Source: Nitrospirales bacterium (GTDB lineage: Bacteria; Nitrospirota; Nitrospiria; Nitrospirales; UBA8639). From it: a stretch of DNA of 37,728 nucleotides. The notes below the pieces were generated by a model. That model saw nothing but the letters and a program-made list of their open reading frames with translations. It did no database searches and was not told where the DNA came from. Positions within the stretch are counted from its first letter, which is position 1. Every line of letters begins with the position of its first letter. The stretch is taken from assembly GCA_021604005.1 (NCBI GenBank), contig BQIV01000041.1, positions 1-37,728 on the forward strand, read 5' to 3'. A program made the translations under genes and the position numbers. Positions 2,948 through 35,216 of this stretch are shown piece after piece.

Positions 2948-3949
2948 TTACCAGACGACTTGTGCAAACAGGTCGGCCAAGGCCGGATCAATCCCTTTTC
3001 CAGCTTCGCGACGGATGTGTTCCCGGGCTTCCGGAATGGCCAATGGTCCTTGATTGTCATGGCCAACCACTAAATGGTCGAACAGATTTGCTAAGCCAAC
3101 GATTCGAGCAAGATAGGGGATTTCTTCTCCCGTGAGCCCGTCCGGGTAGCCGGTCCCATCATACCGTTCATGATGAGAATGAATAATGTGAGAGACCGGC
3201 TCAGGGAACGGGAGTGCTTGAATCATCTTTACCCCAATGATGGGATGGCATTTCACAACTTCTTGGTCTTGTTCTGATTGCGGCAAGTCTCCTGAAATCA
3301 AATGATTGTGAATGCCAAATTTTCCAATATCATGAATATAGGCGCCCAATTGAATATATTCTTTTTCCTCAGGAGATAGTTGGAGATGTTCGGCCAACAA
3401 AGATGAGTAAAAGTTTACTCGGTGTGAATGTTGCGCGAGTTCCGGGCTTTTGGCCTCTAACAAGGTTTCAAAGTTTTTGATCGCCGTCTGAGGGTTGTCT
3501 TCTCCACTCCATAAATTTCCAAATGCTTGTAAGGCGCCTTGCAGCGAGGTCATTCGACGACGACGTTCGAATGTTTGATCCACGACGGCGAGTAGTTCAG
3601 TTACATTAAATGGCTTGAGTATATACGCAGCCACGCCTTGGCGAATGGCATCCATGGCTGACTGTAAGGTTCCATAGCCAGTGATAATAATGACTTCCAC
3701 GTCTTGTCCCTGCTGACGGATACTTTGAAGAAGGTCGATGCCCTGTTGCCCGGGGAGTTTGAGATCTAACGTGATCAAGTCAATCGGTTGGCGTTTGAGG
3801 ACTTCGAATGCCACTTCCGCACTGTCGACCGTAATGAGATTGAAATATGGTGCTAGCACCATTTTAATGGATTCACGAGGCCCTTCTTCGTCTTCAACAA
3901 TTAAGATCGAAGGTTGTTGGGAGGGGAGGGAGCTAGCAGTAGGATCCAT
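2948..3949 (-). CDS. Response regulator with HD-GYP c-di-GMP phosphodiesterase domain
   Basis: A 333-aa two-domain regulator. The N-terminal receiver (about 14-130) has acidic residues VEDEE, phospho-acceptor Asp62 in TLDLKLPG, the conserved Thr (IITGYG) and Lys112 in KPF. The C-terminal part is an HD-GYP domain (about 165-330) with H206-D207 in YIHDIGKFGI and the family signature HHERYDGTGYPDG, so hydrolysis of cyclic di-GMP is expected. I chose the ATG at 3949 because GGAGAAG lies five bases upstream; an in-frame TTG at 3982 would add 11 residues but has no ribosome site. It precedes the hybrid kinase gene on the same strand, making the kinase a likely partner (inference). Confidence 0.92.
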   Translation of the reverse strand: MDPTASSLPSQQPSILIVEDEEGPRESIKMVLAPYFNLITVDSAEVAFEVLKRQPIDLITLDLKLPGQQGIDLLQSIRQQGQDVEVIIITGYGTLQSAMDAIRQGVAAYILKPFNVTELLAVVDQTFERRRRMTSLQGALQAFGNLWSGEDNPQTAIKNFETLLEAKSPELAQHSHRVNFYSSLLAEHLQLSPEEKEYIQLGAYIHDIGKFGIHNHLISGDLPQSEQDQEVVKCHPIIGVKMIQALPFPEPVSHIIHSHHERYDGTGYPDGLTGEEIPYLARIVGLANLFDHLVVGHDNQGPLAIPEAREHIRREAGKGIDPALADLFAQVVW

Positions 3950-6999: not shown

Positions 7000-7758
7000 A
7001 TGTCGAGTGTACAGCATGATTGGCCTTCCATGCCTGATGTAGTTCAGCGCGTCATTCTGAACTACCTGAAGCAGTTACGTAAATCGTTCGAGCCACAGCT
7101 CGAAGGGGTGCTTCTCTATGGGAGCCTCGTGCGCGGAGAATATGTTGACGGGCATTCCAATATCAACCTACTTCTGATCTTACATGAATGCTCCTTACCC
7201 AATTTACAGCATGTCGCACAATTGACAGAGAAATGGCGAAAGCATGGAATTGTCCCACCCTTATTGTTGACAGAGGAAGAACTTCGGCAATCCGTAGAAT
7301 ATTTTCCGTTAGAATATTTTGAAATAAAAGATAATCATGTGTTGTTGGAGGGCAGAGACCCGTTTGTAACCATCCATATCAATGATCAAAATCTCGAATT
7401 ACAATGTCAGCAGGAATTGAATGGGAATCTCCTGAGAGTCCGGCAACGCTTTGTTGAAGGCGGTGGACGCCCTGAGGCCATTGCCGCCTTATTGCCGCTT
7501 TCGCTCATGGCGTTGCTTCCGTGTCTTCGGGGTGTCTGCCGGGTGTTGGGGCACCCATCCGGAGGAACGTCTGAGGCTTTTTTATCAAATCTTCCCAATA
7601 CATTACACGTTGAGGCGTCCGTGTTTCTAGAAGTCCTTGAGGTTAAGCAAGGGTTTCGGAGCCCCGGCAAGCACGCGTGGTCGCAACTCGTTATGCGGTA
7701 TATACAGAATCTGGAACAGGTTATTCACAAGGTGCGGGAATTGCGACAACATGCGTAG
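7000..7758 (+). CDS. Nucleotidyltransferase-fold protein with altered active site
   Basis: A 252-aa protein. Residues around 35-65 read GVLLYGSLVRGEYVDGHSNI followed by NLLLIL, which matches the MNT-type nucleotidyltransferase pattern GS-x-xRGE-x(n)-S-D-x-D. The two metal-binding aspartates appear as asparagines (SNIN), so catalysis in the usual way is doubtful. The rest is helical with no signal peptide. ATG 7000 has GAGGA upstream; the open frame runs further 5' but into the end of the monooxygenase gene. It lies directly before the TPM-domain gene, with a start-stop gap of about 20 bp, indicating one transcript. A binding or regulatory function is possible; this is inference. Confidence 0.75.
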   Translation: MSSVQHDWPSMPDVVQRVILNYLKQLRKSFEPQLEGVLLYGSLVRGEYVDGHSNINLLLILHECSLPNLQHVAQLTEKWRKHGIVPPLLLTEEELRQSVEYFPLEYFEIKDNHVLLEGRDPFVTIHINDQNLELQCQQELNGNLLRVRQRFVEGGGRPEAIAALLPLSLMALLPCLRGVCRVLGHPSGGTSEAFLSNLPNTLHVEASVFLEVLEVKQGFRSPGKHAWSQLVMRYIQNLEQVIHKVRELRQHA

Positions 7759-7777
7759 CCTGGTGAAGAGAAATTTT

Positions 7778-8506
7778 ATGTGGCGAACCCTCTGGATCAT
7801 TGCTCTGATTGGTACGTGGTGTGTCGGACTCATGGTTCCACTGGCTGTTGCTCAATATCCACGGCCAAAAGTTGCTCTCGACCTTCCTACGCCGTTGGGG
7901 TATGTCAGTGACTATGCCAAGGTGTTATCTGACCATTGGTCTGAACGTATTCGAGGTGTGTGTAAGGAGCTTGAGCAACGGACAGGTGTGGAAATGATTA
8001 TCGTGACATTGCCGACAGTCGGGCCGGATGTGAGTGTTGAAAAATATGCATCGGAATTATATGAAACGTGGCGTATCGGAACGGCACAGCAACAGCACGG
8101 ACTCGTCCTCCTGGCCTCAATGGAGGAGCGGCAAGCGGTGGTCGTATTAGGGCGAAGTTTGTTATCCGTCATTACCCGGCAGCAACTCAATGAACTCTCG
8201 GCTGAATTTTTCGTGCCGATGTTCAAAACACGCGAATTTGACAAGCCGCTGTATCAAGCAACCGTTCGGTTGGCTGCAGCCACGGGCAACGTACACTATC
8301 GTGAAAAACCGGAGAAGAAGAATTCCAACGTCGGGTTTTGGATGAATCTGACGGCGGCGCTTATGATGCTCTATGCCCTCTGGCGATTTACCCGTCCGGA
8401 GAAAAAGCATCCCTTTCAACGTTGGCGGCGTGGTGAGTATTGGAGTACGGGCCAGGGAGGATTTGGCGGCAACTTCGGTAGTTTCGGTGGGCGGTTAGAA
8501 GAATAA
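7778..8506 (+). CDS. TPM-domain (YgcG-type) exported membrane protein
   Basis: About 242 aa. The N-terminus is a signal peptide or anchor (hydrophobic run ending in AVA before QYPRP). A TPM domain follows (about 30-165): GYVSDYAKVLSD, then KELEQRTGVEMIIVTLPT, LYETWRIGTAQQQHGLVLLAS and a VVVLGRS strand. One transmembrane segment lies near 185-205 (NLTAALMMLYALW), and the protein ends in a glycine/phenylalanine-rich tail (GGFGGNFGSFGG), as in other YgcG-like proteins. The family has been linked to phosphatase-like or membrane-protein assembly roles without a settled function. Start 7778 has a purine-rich GAAGAG upstream; ATG 7751, overlapping the end of the previous gene, is the alternative and adds a basic n-region. 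Confidence 0.85.
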   Translation: MWRTLWIIALIGTWCVGLMVPLAVAQYPRPKVALDLPTPLGYVSDYAKVLSDHWSERIRGVCKELEQRTGVEMIIVTLPTVGPDVSVEKYASELYETWRIGTAQQQHGLVLLASMEERQAVVVLGRSLLSVITRQQLNELSAEFFVPMFKTREFDKPLYQATVRLAAATGNVHYREKPEKKNSNVGFWMNLTAALMMLYALWRFTRPEKKHPFQRWRRGEYWSTGQGGFGGNFGSFGGRLEE

Positions 8507-8600
8507 CTGAGTTTTGAAATTATAGAGGTCAGGCATGCTTATTGATTAAATGGACGTGCCATGCTGTGTGATCGATGCGTATGGAAATGAGGCGATGGGG

Positions 8601-9365
8601 TTATGCGTGTATGGTGCTCTGTGTAGATAATGCCAGGAATGTCTCCAAGTTTCTGGCGCTACTGAATCGATGGTCGCCTGTCTTCAAGATTAATTCAATA
8701 GGGTAGTGTAAGTCCTGTGTCAGCAGGTGTTCCGTCATGTCCCAACTGCCAGTTGGTGAAATGACGGTATCTTGCAGGCCATGTAGGATGGTGGTTGGAA
8801 CACGCCGAGGTGGCGTCATGCGTTCCGCCCACAGCGCTTCACTTTCTTTAACCCATTTCCACGACAACGGAAAGTCTCGGTGAAGGGCATCGTCATCCCA
8901 TGGCATCCAGCCCGTCTGTTCCCATGCGTCCCTTCGAGTGGGGGAGATATCCTGTGCTCGTTTCCCCATCATATTAAAGGCTGGAGCGAGGAGTAACAGC
9001 TGCCGGACATAGGGCAGTTGTTGTCCCAATACCCATGCGAGCCAACCGCCTAGCGATGAGCCAATAATTGTGAGTGGAGGACCGTCGGCGATCATGGTGA
9101 CGACCCGTCTTGCATCATCAAGCCAATCATGCAACGTATAGTCGCCAAACGCGCCTTCCGAGTCACCATTTCCTCGAAAATCAAAACAGCAAAACCCCCA
9201 GTGGTGTTCTTGGCAGGTATGAGCCAGGGCTCGGCTTTTGTTGCCCCATCGTTTTGATAAGAATCCGGTGATAAATAATATTTGCCGGTCTTTCCCCGTG
9301 ATCCGGTCTCCGATGATCAATTTGGAGTCGGCGCCTTGTATTTCAAATTGTGATGCCTGGGTCAT
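8601..9365 (-). CDS. Alpha/beta hydrolase
   Basis: A 254-aa cytoplasmic serine hydrolase. The nucleophile elbow is GSSLGG, the likely acid is the Asp in HGLQDTVI, and the catalytic His lies in KTGDHRF near the C-terminus; an oxyanion-hole region is seen at FITGFLSKRWGNK. The order and spacing fit short-chain thioesterase/depalmitoylase-like alpha/beta hydrolases, but the substrate cannot be assigned. AGGA stands eight bases before the ATG. It follows the amidohydrolase gene on the minus strand after 49 bp, so the two hydrolases probably form an operon. Its 3' end converges on the TPM-domain gene. Confidence 0.88.
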   Translation of the reverse strand: MTQASQFEIQGADSKLIIGDRITGKDRQILFITGFLSKRWGNKSRALAHTCQEHHWGFCCFDFRGNGDSEGAFGDYTLHDWLDDARRVVTMIADGPPLTIIGSSLGGWLAWVLGQQLPYVRQLLLLAPAFNMMGKRAQDISPTRRDAWEQTGWMPWDDDALHRDFPLSWKWVKESEALWAERMTPPRRVPTTILHGLQDTVISPTGSWDMTEHLLTQDLHYPIELILKTGDHRFSSARNLETFLALSTQSTIHA

Positions 9366-21437: not shown

Positions 21438-21578
21438 ACAAATCAGCTTTCCACTGCCTTCATTCCAATCGTGAGGAATGAGGAGCTGGAATCTACTGAC
21501 CTGACCAGTCGTTTCCAAGGAGATCATCTCATCTCCTTTTTTGTTCACTGTTTTTACTCATTACCAAAGGAGGGCGTC

Positions 21579-22442
21579 ATGAAGCGTTGTCTGGGTTCAT
21601 GGGCTGAGAGGCCAACCATGCGGGAAGCCGTTGGAGATACTCAACGGCCAGAGAACATGTTGAGCATCATGAACCAACGGGTAAGTGCAAAGCCGACTCT
21701 CGGCATGATTGTCGGGCTGATGTTGCTATTTGCCAGTGCTGGTGTTCACGCTGCGACGTTTGGGTTTACCGATCGTTCAGCATTTCAAACTGCGTTGCCG
21801 GGGCAGACCTCAGTCATCAATTTCGATGATGTAGATGCCGGTACGTCAATTCAAGATGGAGTGCCGTTTCAAGGCACTCGTTTCACGAGTAATGTTGACA
21901 ATATTCCCGGAAGGGAGGGCTTGCTGGTTTCTGCAGAATTTCTCACCACCTCACCACTGAACTATCTAGGAGTCAACGATGGGTTTTCCAATGAATTCTT
22001 GTTCGGTGATGAATTGACCTTGAATTTTACCCAACCGGTTCGTGCGGTCGGGCTGTTGGTTATCGCTGGTCCTGATGCGGCGCTGGCAAACGATTTTTTG
22101 CTCACAGCTGGTGGAGGCAGCGTGTTCAATTCCGGAATACCTGAACAGCGATTATTCGACGGAGGCGAAGTGTTCTTTTTAGGGTTGATCAATGATCAGG
22201 GGTTCAGCACTGCACAATTGATCAGCTTTGGGGATCAAATCGACACATCTTTGGGGTTTAACGTCGATGACATTTCGACTGCCGCACCTTCCAATGCGGC
22301 TCCCGTCCCTGAGCCGTCGGCCGTGCTTCTTTTCGGTACAGGTCTGTTGTTACTTGGCGGGGTCGCGAGGCGGAATAGGCTAAAGGCTGCCGCGATACAA
22401 GACAAGAGACTGGAATGTTTAGAAAGTGTATCAAGCAAGTGA
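21579..22442 (+). CDS. PEP-CTERM exported protein
   Basis: A 287-aa protein from ATG 21579, which has AAAGGAGG six bases upstream; the frame is open to 21471 but those codons lack a ribosome site. A signal segment ends near VHAATFGF (the stretch beginning MNQRVSAKP could be an internal start). The mature part is predicted beta-rich with FDDVDAGTS and several Asn/Gly-rich loops. Near the C-terminus is the sorting signal VPEPSAVLLFGTG plus a hydrophobic run and an RRNR cluster, recognised by exosortase/PEP-CTERM systems. Unusually, about 19 residues follow the arginine cluster (ending LECLESVSSK), where such proteins normally stop. No exosortase gene is in the window. Confidence 0.9.
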   Translation: MKRCLGSWAERPTMREAVGDTQRPENMLSIMNQRVSAKPTLGMIVGLMLLFASAGVHAATFGFTDRSAFQTALPGQTSVINFDDVDAGTSIQDGVPFQGTRFTSNVDNIPGREGLLVSAEFLTTSPLNYLGVNDGFSNEFLFGDELTLNFTQPVRAVGLLVIAGPDAALANDFLLTAGGGSVFNSGIPEQRLFDGGEVFFLGLINDQGFSTAQLISFGDQIDTSLGFNVDDISTAAPSNAAPVPEPSAVLLFGTGLLLLGGVARRNRLKAAAIQDKRLECLESVSSK

Positions 22443-30776: not shown

Positions 30777-31308
30777 GAACTCCGCGCGGTACCGCGTTCC
30801 AACGAGCGAAAGTTATTTGAAACGGCTATAAATGAGCCTATACCCTAATGTGCAACGTATCGGTATTTGCACCAAATTGCTACCCCCAAAACACATGCAT
30901 GGCTTTCTTTCGTAATATTGAGACGCGTGCTTGTGCGTTGGCAATCAGTCGTTGTGAATAGGGATTTGTGACTTTTTCTTTTCGTTGGCCACTTTTTACG
31001 GATTGCCGCTGTACGTGATTGCTTCATGAGATTGCAGGCTGCTGTGTGAAAAAATCTCATCTTCAGAATACAGATTGGATAACGCTTTGTATCCATTCCG
31101 ATACGATGTGAAGTTCCTGTCTTTTTCCTCTTCGTGAATTTCGTTGCGCTCTTGTCACGAGCAAGATATTCGAAGTTGCTGAAATACCTCGAGGTCTCCA
31201 GCGCATTCTTGCGTGCGTCTCTTCTATCTTTCCATTGGCCTCCCTTTTGCTTACGTTTGACAAGAGAATGTACGACCCAACAACATTTTTACAGTAAGGA
31301 TGCAAGTC
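30777..31308. other. Intergenic stretch between divergent genes, no gene seen
   Basis: About 530 bases between the cyclase gene (minus) and the small gene at 31309 (plus). Reading frames on both strands lack ribosome sites and look like chance. A TTGACA at 31257-31262 could be the -35 of the plus-strand gene, but no good -10 follows. Confidence 0.4.
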
Positions 31309-31668
31309 ATGCCATCATTATTTAATCGTGAGGTGAGTTCGTATAAAGTTGATGTCTTTAAGTCTAGTACGTTGAATTATATTCGTGCCATTCGACTGAA
31401 TTTAAAACCGACGGACTCAGCGGCAGCGCATACGGTATCGATTCGATTTTATTCAGCACCTGGAAACGATTGGGTGAGTATTGGAGCGAACTTTTCGACG
31501 ATTCAAATGAATCTGGATCGCTATGATGACATGTATCATATCCTGCAAGCCGAAAAGCCCGTGTACTTCACGGCGTATGAACTGGGGAATCCCTCGATTC
31601 GTTTCGCCGGACTTACCACCGATTCTAAAGCTATAGGAGAAGGTTTTCGCGATGCAGATGCAGCGTGA
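31309..31668 (+). CDS. Hypothetical small protein
   Basis: A 119-aa protein that I do not recognise. ATG 31309 is preceded by GTAAGG about nine bases upstream; an ATG at 31300 overlaps that site. There is no signal peptide or membrane helix. It looks like a beta-rich protein with repeated hydrophobic/polar alternation (TLNYIRAIRLNLKP, TVSIRFYSAPGNDWVSIGAN, KPVYFTAYELGNPSIRFAGL). It stands alone, directly upstream of the left-truncated end of the second MITE-like repeat, whose first bases begin 17 bases after the stop codon. Confidence 0.6.
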   Translation: MPSLFNREVSSYKVDVFKSSTLNYIRAIRLNLKPTDSAAAHTVSIRFYSAPGNDWVSIGANFSTIQMNLDRYDDMYHILQAEKPVYFTAYELGNPSIRFAGLTTDSKAIGEGFRDADAA

Positions 31669-31685
31669 TTTTAAATGAATATCGC

Positions 31686-31984
31686 GAGGACATGTTACTC
31701 GAGCCCACTGCTCACTCCACTGTTTATTGCCTATTTTCTTTGTCGTCTCAGTTTTGACTCCCTGCCGGGGTTCGTCCCGGCGGCCGAGGCCCTTTTGTTT
31801 CGGCAAAAGGACCCAAAACCATTGACGTCCAGGCCAGGTTCATCGGATGAGCTGAACCCCGGTTGGTGGGGCGGGCTAACTCGCTGCGCTCAAACAAACC
31901 CGCCCGGTATGAGAGGTATTCACTCAACGGACTGGCCTGCAGGCGTCAGAGCATAGGTACTAAGAAAAAGTTAAAAAACTATAG
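31686..31984 (+). repeat. MITE-like dispersed repeat, copy 2 (left-truncated)
   Basis: 31686-31888 matches the reverse complement of 1-203 at nearly every base. The element continues to 31984, ending with AAAAGTTAAAAAACTATAG (31966-31984), the reverse complement of the outer end of copy 1. The left part found in copy 1 (its bases 204-350) is missing here; the sequence before 31686 is unrelated. Frames inside the repeat are translations of non-coding DNA. Confidence 0.7.
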
Positions 31985-32139: not shown

Positions 32140-32859
32140 TTAGCGATGTTCTCGTAACCGCCAGAGTGCCAGTCCTATGAGTCCGGAGCCAAGGAGTAGG
32201 ACTGTTGACGGTTCAGGAACGGCTTCGGCTGTCAATTCGCCAAGTAAAATTGCAGAATTCGAAGGACCATTATTCGTGAGAATTAGTTGTTGAAATGAGT
32301 TGCCATTGATCATACCTCCTAGCTGCAAGGTCAAAGGCGCATAATCGGCGTTGGCAATGGGAATAATTGCCTGTGATCCTAAGTTGGTAATAACTTCTAG
32401 AGTACCAATAGCGTTCGCGAGCGGTGTATTGTTTGGGAAGGTTGTACCAGGCGCTGTAGGGCCAACTGAGAGGCCATCTTCCGTGCCACGCACCTGCAGC
32501 GTTAATTCTTGAACTAGTCCAGGCGTAAAATCAATATTCGCCGAGCCTGACCCCGCAACACCAAACGCCCGGTTGTTGACTTGTGGGGCGCCGCCAAAAT
32601 TCGCCAAACCCTGAGCCGATAGCGGGTTGTCTGTTGCAGGGCCTGCGCCACCTACATAAAAATTTCCATTCTGAAAGAAAAGCGTTTCTCCCCCGGTAAA
32701 TGATGTGAAGCCATCGATGCCGTTCAGCACGCTTGGGTCTGGGGGAGCCCCGGGTGTGGTATTCGGTCCGAAGATGGTGGTGAATGAGGTTGCCAGTGCA
32801 GGCTGGCTGCCAATGAACGTTAGCAGGAAAAGTAGGATGAACGAGAAAGAACGTATCAT
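32140..32859 (-). CDS. PEP-CTERM exported protein
   Basis: A 239-aa protein. ATG 32859 has GGAGGAGG five bases upstream; an extension to 32889 has none. A signal peptide ends at ALA before TSFTTIFGP. The mature part is rich in Gly, Asn, Pro and Thr with predicted beta structure and no cysteine, typical of exopolysaccharide-associated PEP-CTERM proteins. The C-terminus is a textbook sorting signal: VPEPSTVLLLGSG, hydrophobic helix, then RLREHR as the last residues. It stands alone, followed by a hairpin. Export and sorting would need an exosortase encoded elsewhere. Confidence 0.92.
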   Translation of the reverse strand: MIRSFSFILLFLLTFIGSQPALATSFTTIFGPNTTPGAPPDPSVLNGIDGFTSFTGGETLFFQNGNFYVGGAGPATDNPLSAQGLANFGGAPQVNNRAFGVAGSGSANIDFTPGLVQELTLQVRGTEDGLSVGPTAPGTTFPNNTPLANAIGTLEVITNLGSQAIIPIANADYAPLTLQLGGMINGNSFQQLILTNNGPSNSAILLGELTAEAVPEPSTVLLLGSGLIGLALWRLREHR

Positions 32860-33758
32860 GGTACCTCCTCCTCTGTGGCGAACAGCCACCTGTATGAGTG
32901 ATGAAAAATGTATTGATATAGGAACATTTGACGCAATTGTTGTACTCGTCAGCGATCGCGCATCTCTGCAAATCTCAACGTGTTGATCGACAAAGAGTTT
33001 TGTGGGTGAGTGTGTTCACGTCGATGAGGGTAACGGCTATTGAAGGCCAAATACTCTGAAGGCAAAAGCCTGCAGTTGAAAGCGGAAAAGTAAAAAAAAG
33101 TGACATTAGATTTCCAAAGACATTACAGGCAGAGGTGGTAATTATATGTAAAGTATGAAATACATGATGTGCGTGCTGGTTCACTCCAAGTCAGGTAACC
33201 CAATCGGTAGAGTCTACGGTCTGGCAATGACTCTCGTGGTGAAGCTGAAGTCGATGTGATGGTTGAGATGTAAAATAATTTAGACAGAAACTGTCTCAAT
33301 TCTCCAATTAGGGCATCGTACGCGGCCAGTAGAGCTTGGATTTTTAGAATGAGTCTAGGTGATGGGTGTAATGGTAGTGAACATGGGAGATCTGCCTTTC
33401 ATGTCCATCATGAACGCTCAATACCTGAGCATCTCTAGCCTATGTCTGTCTGGTGACTTGGCCAACTTCTGTGTCAGCTCATCTTTTCGCCTACTGTCAG
33501 ATAGATTGTTTGACTCACACTGAAGAATGTATGGAGAGCAAGTGTTCCATTTATTAAATTGCTCTCATGCATGCATCCGTTCTGTTCTTCCTCTCGTATA
33601 TTCTGATGACGGGTAATCAGCTGATTCCTTCACAATGAAGAAAATGTGGGCACGCATTCGAAGCAAGCGGTCATCTACTGTCATGAACCATTTTGTTTCG
33701 TACTGCGGAGAGGAACCCATGTTTGCAATCTACATGCTTATGAGAGGAGAAATGGATC
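32860..33758. other. Long non-coding stretch
   Basis: Nearly 900 bases without a convincing gene between the divergently transcribed PEP-CTERM gene and the six-cysteine gene. It must hold both promoters. I see no repeat, no tRNA and no recognisable riboswitch; a few short frames lack ribosome sites. Confidence 0.5.
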
Positions 33759-34160
33759 ATGGATATCGAAAGCGAACTCAATCCTGAAAACGTACAGAAA
33801 ATTTCTACGATTCTTGAGCAGTTTGACCAAAGCGAGGTCAAGGCCGCTGTGGAGGGTTTAACCCTCGAAGCCTCAACTGCTGAGAGTGTGTTCGGTGATG
33901 TCTTGTTGGAGAGAGCCGACCTGGAACCTTTTGGCACAGAATACATCACTACGATAGCCGCACTTGCACTTGGAACAGAAAAAGATAAAAGTTGTCATGC
34001 AAAATTCATCGCGTGTCTCATTAAAGCCGGCAAGAAACTTGACGATTGCCGAAAAAAAGCAAAAGGTGACAAGGAGAAACTCAAGAAGTGTATCGATGAG
34101 CATGCTGAGGATCTGAAGAAGTGCATCAAGGCTTTTGAGGACTGTAAGAAAAAGAAATAG
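33759..34160 (+). CDS. Small protein with six cysteines in mirror-symmetric spacing
   Basis: A 133-aa protein that I do not recognise. AGGAG lies upstream of the ATG. Residues 1-75 are an acidic, cysteine-free part (MDIESELNPENVQKISTILE onward, then AALALGTEKDKSC). The last 55 residues are very Lys-rich and carry Cys79, 86, 97, 111, 122 and 129. The spacings 7-11-14-11-7 are a palindrome, and the first three lie on one face of a helix, as do the last three. This predicts an antiparallel helical hairpin closed by three nested disulfides (79-129, 86-122, 97-111), or a metal-binding bundle. There is no Sec signal, so oxidation would need another export route or a cytoplasmic metal instead. A hairpin follows the gene. 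Confidence 0.7.
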   Translation: MDIESELNPENVQKISTILEQFDQSEVKAAVEGLTLEASTAESVFGDVLLERADLEPFGTEYITTIAALALGTEKDKSCHAKFIACLIKAGKKLDDCRKKAKGDKEKLKKCIDEHAEDLKKCIKAFEDCKKKK

Positions 34161-34179
34161 GCCAAATTCTTGAGGCTGA

Positions 34180-34252
34180 AGACGGGTGGGTGGATGTTGT
34201 CGAGTGTCCAATGCAACGATATCCGTACGCTCGGCAACATCCGCTTCCGTCT
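34180..34252 (+). terminator. Extended hairpin after the six-cysteine gene
   Basis: A 13-bp stem (GGATGTTGtCGAG 34192-34204 with CTCGgCAACATCC 34230-34242, one wobble pair) is enclosed by a second stem AGACGG/CCGTCT. It begins 20 bases after the stop codon; the sequence after it is A/T-rich but without a clean T-run. A terminator or message-stabilising element is likely. Confidence 0.45.
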
Positions 34253-34331
34253 GTCTTGGAAAAATATTTCTTAAAAAGGTCGGGAGTCTTTATCTGAAAT
34301 TCTTTCTATTGAAACCAGTCGAGGTAGACTT

Positions 34332-35216
34332 CTAACCTTCCTCCAATGACGAGGGTATCTGATCGGTTTGGTTCAGCTCGACGACAATTTCAGTCTTGGC
34401 AACAGGTTGATTGATTCGACGTTTGGATCTTCCGAAGTTGTGGCCATTCAACGCCATGGCAATACCAATGCCTGTTTAATCCTTCTCCCGTGTTGGGATG
34501 AGCCCCGTATAGACAAGTCCTTCTCCGGCATAGAGTTCGATTTGATTCACACGTGGCTCTGCCAAGCCGATTCGAGTGAAAACCGTCAATCCTTGGTGGT
34601 AATCGTCGGGCTCATGATCGACCGAATATTCAGCCAATCCATACATTCCATATATTGTATTGCGTGTGACAGAGGTTCCTGCCGAGTCGACTCTTTGAAT
34701 ATTGTTGAACTCTCGTGTAAACACCCATGCTCTGCTGGCAAACTTCCCATCGTACTCTAAGGCTGCCGTCTGCATGAGGCGATGGCGCAACAGTCGATCC
34801 GGTCGTTGGGCTCGTTCTTGGAGTTCGAGTTCGCCAAAATGGTAAGAGGCCAATTCTGTCGCCAAGAACAGGCCATCATCTTTCTCCAAGATGATTCTTG
34901 TGTCTTCAAGATTATTCGGATCGCTAACAATGCTATCCATTACCGCTCCTCGGAACGCGAGTGCATTCTAAATATTCACTTGTCTCCTTAGCCCTATTGA
35001 CGAGGGAGGCAATGTCGAAAGCCCACTATGGCCCCCAAGTGCTAGTTCAGCTCCAGTGCTTAAGGAACTCTGGATGAATAGCTCCGAGGAGGATCGTATG
35101 ACGTCGAATTCGGAGGAGATATCGTAGAGTCCGATCAGAAGAGAGGCATGGTTGCCGAAGTCATCAAGATAAACAACATCATGATGGAGAGATGCATGTA
35201 TGAACTGTTTCGCTGA
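34332..35216 (-). pseudogene. Decayed OprB-type carbohydrate porin, C-terminal part
   Basis: One minus-strand frame stays in phase over 885 bases but has TAG at 34968-34970 and TAA at 34476-34478. Translation through both stops reads as an OprB-like porin: GLYDISSEFDVIRSSSELFI and STGAELALGG, then LPPSSIGLR near the first stop; NALAFRGAVMDSI, RAWVFTREFNN and YGLAEYSV between the stops; and AGEGLVYTGLIPTREKD, stop, TGIGIAMALNGHN at the second. The second stop falls where Gln would be expected (CAA to TAA). The first half of a full-length OprB is missing. Protein similarity on both sides of each stop argues for recent loss by point mutation. A start within 34940 has GAGGAG upstream, so a fragment could still be made. 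Confidence 0.82.

Follow-up and report, generated by a model that had tools for sequence, protein, structure and literature searches.

A bacterial six-cysteine protein with mirror-symmetric cysteine spacing and a predicted helical hairpin

Mirror-spaced cysteines on antiparallel helices are found in the mitochondrial twin-CxnC (CHCH) proteins, which form a helical hairpin and have no cleaved signal peptide, and six cysteines are likewise packed into about 50 C-terminal residues, after a leader, in the ranthipeptide/SCIFF precursors. In the SG7 family of mosquito salivary proteins, nested disulfides connect helix alpha3 to helix alpha4, namely Cys58-Cys113 and Cys81-Cys91 in albicin (PMC7948415). 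The nemertean neurotoxin B-IV is a disulfide-cross-linked helical hairpin (PMC6410017), and the plant alpha-hairpinins are helix-loop-helix peptides with disulfides and mirror spacing (PMC11591084). Here we describe a bacterial protein with a comparable cysteine arrangement.

A six-cysteine gene and its mirror-symmetric pattern

The window, i.e. the whole 37,728-nucleotide stretch of a Nitrospirales contig analyzed here, carries an ORF without internal stop at 33759-34160 of the forward strand. An in-frame stop 15 nt upstream makes the ATG the first possible common start of this ORF. The features of the gene and its surroundings are as follows:

33127-34300, no strand: 1.17 kb segment (1,174 bp) that includes the gene; sister genome G003, contig C62, has 243 unrelated bp in its place (syntenic comparison)
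33745-33749, forward: Shine-Dalgarno-like AGGAG, 9 nt 5' of the ATG (sequence)
33759-34160, forward: gene of the 133-aa six-cysteine, predicted hairpin protein (translation, cross-phylum homolog, paralog dN/dS 0.15)
33759-33992, forward: acidic N-part, residues 1-78, net charge -12, no cysteine, low-confidence helices (sequence, charge count, AlphaFold)
33993-34157, forward: Lys-rich C-part, residues 79-133, net charge +9, all six cysteines (sequence, charge count)

Lysine makes up 18 of the 55 residues of the C-part. This ORF is a real gene, as shown by the Shine-Dalgarno-like sequence, by a paralog elsewhere in the genome and by a homolog of full length from a gammaproteobacterial MAG; what its product does we infer. 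No signal peptide is visible on inspection in any of the three family members, and the surroundings of the gene revealed neither a sigma-70-like promoter nor a terminator or Rfam RNA.

The cysteines at 79, 86, 97, 111, 122 and 129 read C-x6-C-x10-C-x13-C-x10-C-x6-C, and the palindromic spacing of 7-11-14-11-7 that an earlier note had picked out is exact in the translation: the positions in every nested pair add up to 208, placing the mirror axis at residue 104. Among arrangements of six cysteines with the same first-to-last span, 276 of 211,876 are exact palindromes, a fraction of 0.0013 that overstates the surprise since the pattern was chosen post hoc; hence conservation is the stronger argument. 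The pattern is unchanged in all three sequences (window protein, paralog and gammaproteobacterial homolog): overall identity to the window protein is 33-58%, yet all six cysteines and their spacing are invariant. Because it persists across the phylum boundary in a remote relative, we take the pattern to be real, and the loss of cysteines or symmetry in homologs, which the note had named as evidence to the contrary, is seen in neither of them. The cysteine-free N-terminal part that it described holds for the window protein but not for the family, as the N-part of the gammaproteobacterial homolog carries an extra CxxC. The bare pattern by itself also yields more than 120 matches in viral contigs, the open ones among them being Cys-repeat or unrelated frames, and a handful of matches across the order (own genome excluded), none of which is an open six-cysteine frame.

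Relatives and genomic context

The second copy in the same genome (G000:C3:176604-176972) shows about 60% identity to the window protein. Over 117 aligned codons the two copies give dN 0.25 and dS 1.63, i.e. a dN/dS of about 0.15, and third codon positions change most; thus the sequence appears to be held by purifying selection. The N-part diverges faster than the C-part. The 5' end of the paralog reads in frame ATG-CAC-TTC-TAA before the frame opens, suggesting that this copy is probably broken there and has no working start of its own, unless translation begins at an unusual or internal site (GTG, 103 aa). At its locus (L008), two 131-nt direct repeats, 94% identical (7695-7825 and 8296-8426), flank a small gene adjoining the six-cysteine copy; these repeats are MITE-like, with the inverted ends GGGCACCTCTAAAAA.

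When 84,980 species genomes were scanned, one further relative turned up, from an uncultured gammaproteobacterial MAG (CALZMY010000142.1); because the scan used two short peptide patterns only, more distant members may have been missed, and the family is known from just three sequences. This homolog (locus L009, 2342-2743; 133 aa; E 1e-19) aligns with the window protein over its full length, at 33% identity overall and 51% in the C-part. Besides the cysteines, invariant positions include F83, A90, K92, K93, D95, K110, D113, H115, A116, D118, L119, K120, F126, E127, D128 and K130-132. The gene is AT-rich (36% GC) within a contig stretch of 50% GC. It lies between genes for a secreted reprolysin-like metalloprotease (1053-2009, reverse) and a trypsin-like peptidase (2989-3924, forward), with a NAL1-like protease further along (7864-8871, forward).

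Beyond these, searches of the 4 further genomes of the Nitrospirales genus, of the remainder of the order (235 genomes in all) and of 395 sampled genomes of the phylum brought up no convincing match. The same holds for the 19 further genomes in the order of the gammaproteobacterial relative and for sampled genomes of its class (369) and phylum (398). No relative was present in viral, plasmid or phage collections. Weak profile matches in G015, G025, G051 and G066 were rejected as PII-like proteins.

At the corresponding site of the sister genome G003, the flanking genes for a PEP-CTERM protein and an OprB-like porin are both present. The sporadic occurrence, this syntenic site lacking the gene and the odd GC content together indicate an accessory gene that is easily moved or lost. 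The neighbors differ at all three loci, with no conserved neighbor. In the window, the adjoining porin gene (34301-35160) is a frameshifted and truncated remnant of one that is intact in G003 (468 aa), and two PEP-CTERM exosortase-substrate proteins are encoded at 32140-32889 (reverse) and 21471-22442 (forward). A MITE-like repeat of about 300 bp at 31686-31984 has roughly 40 near copies in the same genome (82-98% identity), many of them at contig ends, and fewer copies in the sister genomes. Small proteins without a family match are encoded near both own-genome copies, at 31300-31668 of the window (122 aa) and 7961-8284 of L008 (107 aa), and share a weakly similar stretch, RYxDM...EKP...GEG (33% over 45 aa); the 122-aa protein is not counted as a conserved partner since the whole-genome search did not recover it.

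Predicted fold and explanations of the family

AlphaFold predicts the C-terminal 62 residues, from an alignment of three rows only, to be an antiparallel helical hairpin (pLDDT 88.4), with the caveat that it readily yields hairpins from Lys-rich heptad-like sequence. Its elements are:

33981-34061, forward: predicted helix 1, residues 75-101, Cys 79, 86 and 97 on one face (AlphaFold, face calculation)
34062-34070, forward: predicted turn, residues 102-104, beside the mirror axis (AlphaFold)
34071-34154, forward: predicted helix 2, residues 105-132, Cys 111, 122 and 129 on one face (AlphaFold, face calculation)

The cysteines of each arm fall on one helical face (R 0.99), and in both arms on the same edge of the hydrophobic stripe, which in antiparallel arms brings them to the same side of the hairpin. 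The nested pairs 79-129, 86-122 and 97-111 fit this arrangement because the predicted turn lies beside the axis at 104. When the arms are modeled simply as two antiparallel helices, all three pairs come out at equal distance and closer than 98% of random triples. With good confidence, the C-part is predicted to be a hairpin with its cysteine pairs in register, the pairing coming from sequence register and simple geometry. The Lys-rich hairpin with nested pairs anticipated by the earlier note, and its single cysteine face per arm, agree with these predictions, although for the proximity of the pairs the agreement comes from the simple geometry only. The model of the whole protein (pLDDT 55) is too weak for the N-part.

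Structural searches rank the AAPP C-terminal domain first for the hairpin (Foldseek TM 0.79, probability 0.98, E 0.57, not significant) and, weakly, albicin for the whole model (E 0.98); a profile search matches SG7/AAPP with E 0.54. The VIA-align matches are not significant, their Z of about 8 being typical for helical hairpins, and the similar folds seen in tRNA synthetase arms, in talin and in designed bundles were dismissed as generic hairpins.

The explanation we consider best, with confidence about evenly poised, is that of an accessory stapled hairpin whose gene spread horizontally as a single gene: a helical N-part of acidic character is followed by the C-terminal alpha-hairpin, which is cationic and holds three nested cysteine pairs. 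The six cysteines would form the three pairs along the seam of the antiparallel helices. Once oxidized, be it beyond the reducing cytoplasm or during oxidative stress, these pairs would become disulfides, locking a rigid amphipathic Lys-rich hairpin that would act by binding something; until then, the acidic N-part might keep it masked or soluble. We infer disulfide formation, the masking of the C-part by the N-part and the role of the hairpin as a binding module. The charge split between the N-part (-12) and the C-part (+9) supports this explanation, as do the invariant cysteines, the purifying selection, the predicted hairpin with its cysteine register and the top-ranked, if weak, AAPP match; three disulfides are favored because nested cross-helix bridges need exact mirror spacing and because each level has just two cysteines. 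Against it stand the lack of a conserved partner gene, the small family of three sequences and the non-significant fold matches. Moreover, as no member has a signal peptide, the default location is the cytoplasm, which disfavors disulfides.

This last point leads to the main rival, metal binding by reduced cytoplasmic thiols, which we judge unlikely. Here, the cysteines would bind soft metal ions (Cu(I), Hg, Cd or Zn) by a logic like that of the Csp copper storage proteins, each level offering two thiols in a single hairpin and four in a four-helix bundle made by two dimerized hairpins. Consistent with it are the missing signal peptide and C39 protease, the thiol layers lining a helical bundle with invariant Asp, His and Lys around the cysteines, and the extra CxxC in the N-part of the gammaproteobacterial homolog. 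However, the C-part has neither CxxC nor the CxxxC that lines the Csp four-helix bundle (and the window protein has no Csp Pfam match), its levels are 7 and 11 residues (10-16 A) apart with just two thiols each in a monomer, and no metal transport or resistance genes were seen adjoining the copies. In a monomer, a level of two thiols suits a disulfide or a linear soft-metal ion better than it suits a tetrahedral site, and an exact mirror is demanded by cross-helix pairing but not by metal sites in general.

The split between an acidic, faster-evolving N-part and a cationic, cysteine-rich C-part might also be that of an exported cystine-stapled peptide precursor, bacteriocin- or alpha-hairpinin-like, from which a leader (residues 1 to about 75) would be removed to release a 55-residue hairpin; this we regard as distinctly improbable. 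An accessory, horizontally moving gene would suit such a peptide, as would the secreted metalloprotease and the trypsin-like peptidase flanking the gammaproteobacterial homolog, but these peptidases are not conserved in context. There is no leader family match and no GG site, and a double-glycine leader is further disfavored because Peptidase_C39, present in 8 of 14 control genomes, is absent from the 100%-complete own genome. No RiPP modification enzyme, peptide exporter or immunity-like gene lies near the window gene, and inspection of the ORFs of L008 and L009 revealed none of these there either. In light of these observations and the acidic character of the N-part, its earlier reading as a leader or chaperone-like part is not established.

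Less probable again, and altogether very unlikely, is a redox-switched nucleic-acid- or protein-binding factor of a mobile segment, open when reduced and locked when oxidized, with the Lys-rich face binding nucleic acid: the lysine content, the missing signal peptide and the variable locus would allow it, but there is neither a DNA-binding family match nor a partner gene. A chance ORF with coincidental cysteine symmetry, for which the ORFan-like distribution and the second copy without a normal start could be cited, is refuted by the cross-phylum full-length homolog (E 1e-19), purifying selection and the Shine-Dalgarno-like sequence with ATG, and retains practically no probability.

If disulfides form, as the stapled-hairpin explanation proposes, the family would offer a compact bacterial cystine-stapled hairpin for which no export route is known, and which could serve both as a scaffold and as a test case for the oxidation of signal-less bacterial proteins; if metal is bound, it would be a new thiol ladder. 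Either way, it is an unannotated accessory gene family common to two phyla.

Comparison with known systems

No family in Pfam, NCBIfam, PHROGs or PADLOC scored above threshold, in line with the initial impression of no such named bacterial family. The predicted kind of structure, a cystine-stapled helical hairpin, is a known one, but the spacing and the bacterial family are unnamed in the searched libraries. The ranthipeptide/SCIFF precursors differ in that mirror spacing is not a feature of SCIFF; no radical-SAM gene lies near the window gene, and NCBIfam models of SCIFF, NHLP and Nif11 leaders or precursors gave no match. The alpha-hairpinins (C-x3-C-xn-C-x3-C, some with six cysteines) are smaller plant peptides with short spacings; their C-x3-C...C-x3-C motif is absent from the window protein, with its 6-10-13-10-6 spacing, and no sequence similarity to them was found. 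The neurotoxin B-IV family (PF07822, Toxin_13) comprises animal peptides with four disulfides and other spacing; the gammaproteobacterial homolog scores 17.4 bits against it, below the Pfam cut-off of 21, and the window protein does not match.

The SG7/30-kDa antigen proteins (AAPP C-terminal domain, 4okv; albicin, 6xke) likewise have antiparallel helices with further helices N-terminal to them, but they are secreted, eukaryotic and have two disulfides; with E-values of 0.57 and 0.98 and identity under 20%, the likeness is to be read as analogy, homology not being shown. The twin-CxnC proteins have two pairs of Cx9C or Cx3C spacing and are oxidized by MIA40, which is not known from bacteria; the spacing of the window protein is different, and it has no CHCH Pfam match. 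It is possible, if on balance doubtful, that the three proteins represent a bacterial family without a name so far, whose helical hairpins carry three staples and whose single gene has moved between phyla. In it, the acidic N-part of a signal-less protein would either bring the hairpin to a place where it is oxidized or retain it for binding triggered by a redox change. Such a family would be a bacterial counterpart of the twin-CxnC and salivary hairpin proteins.
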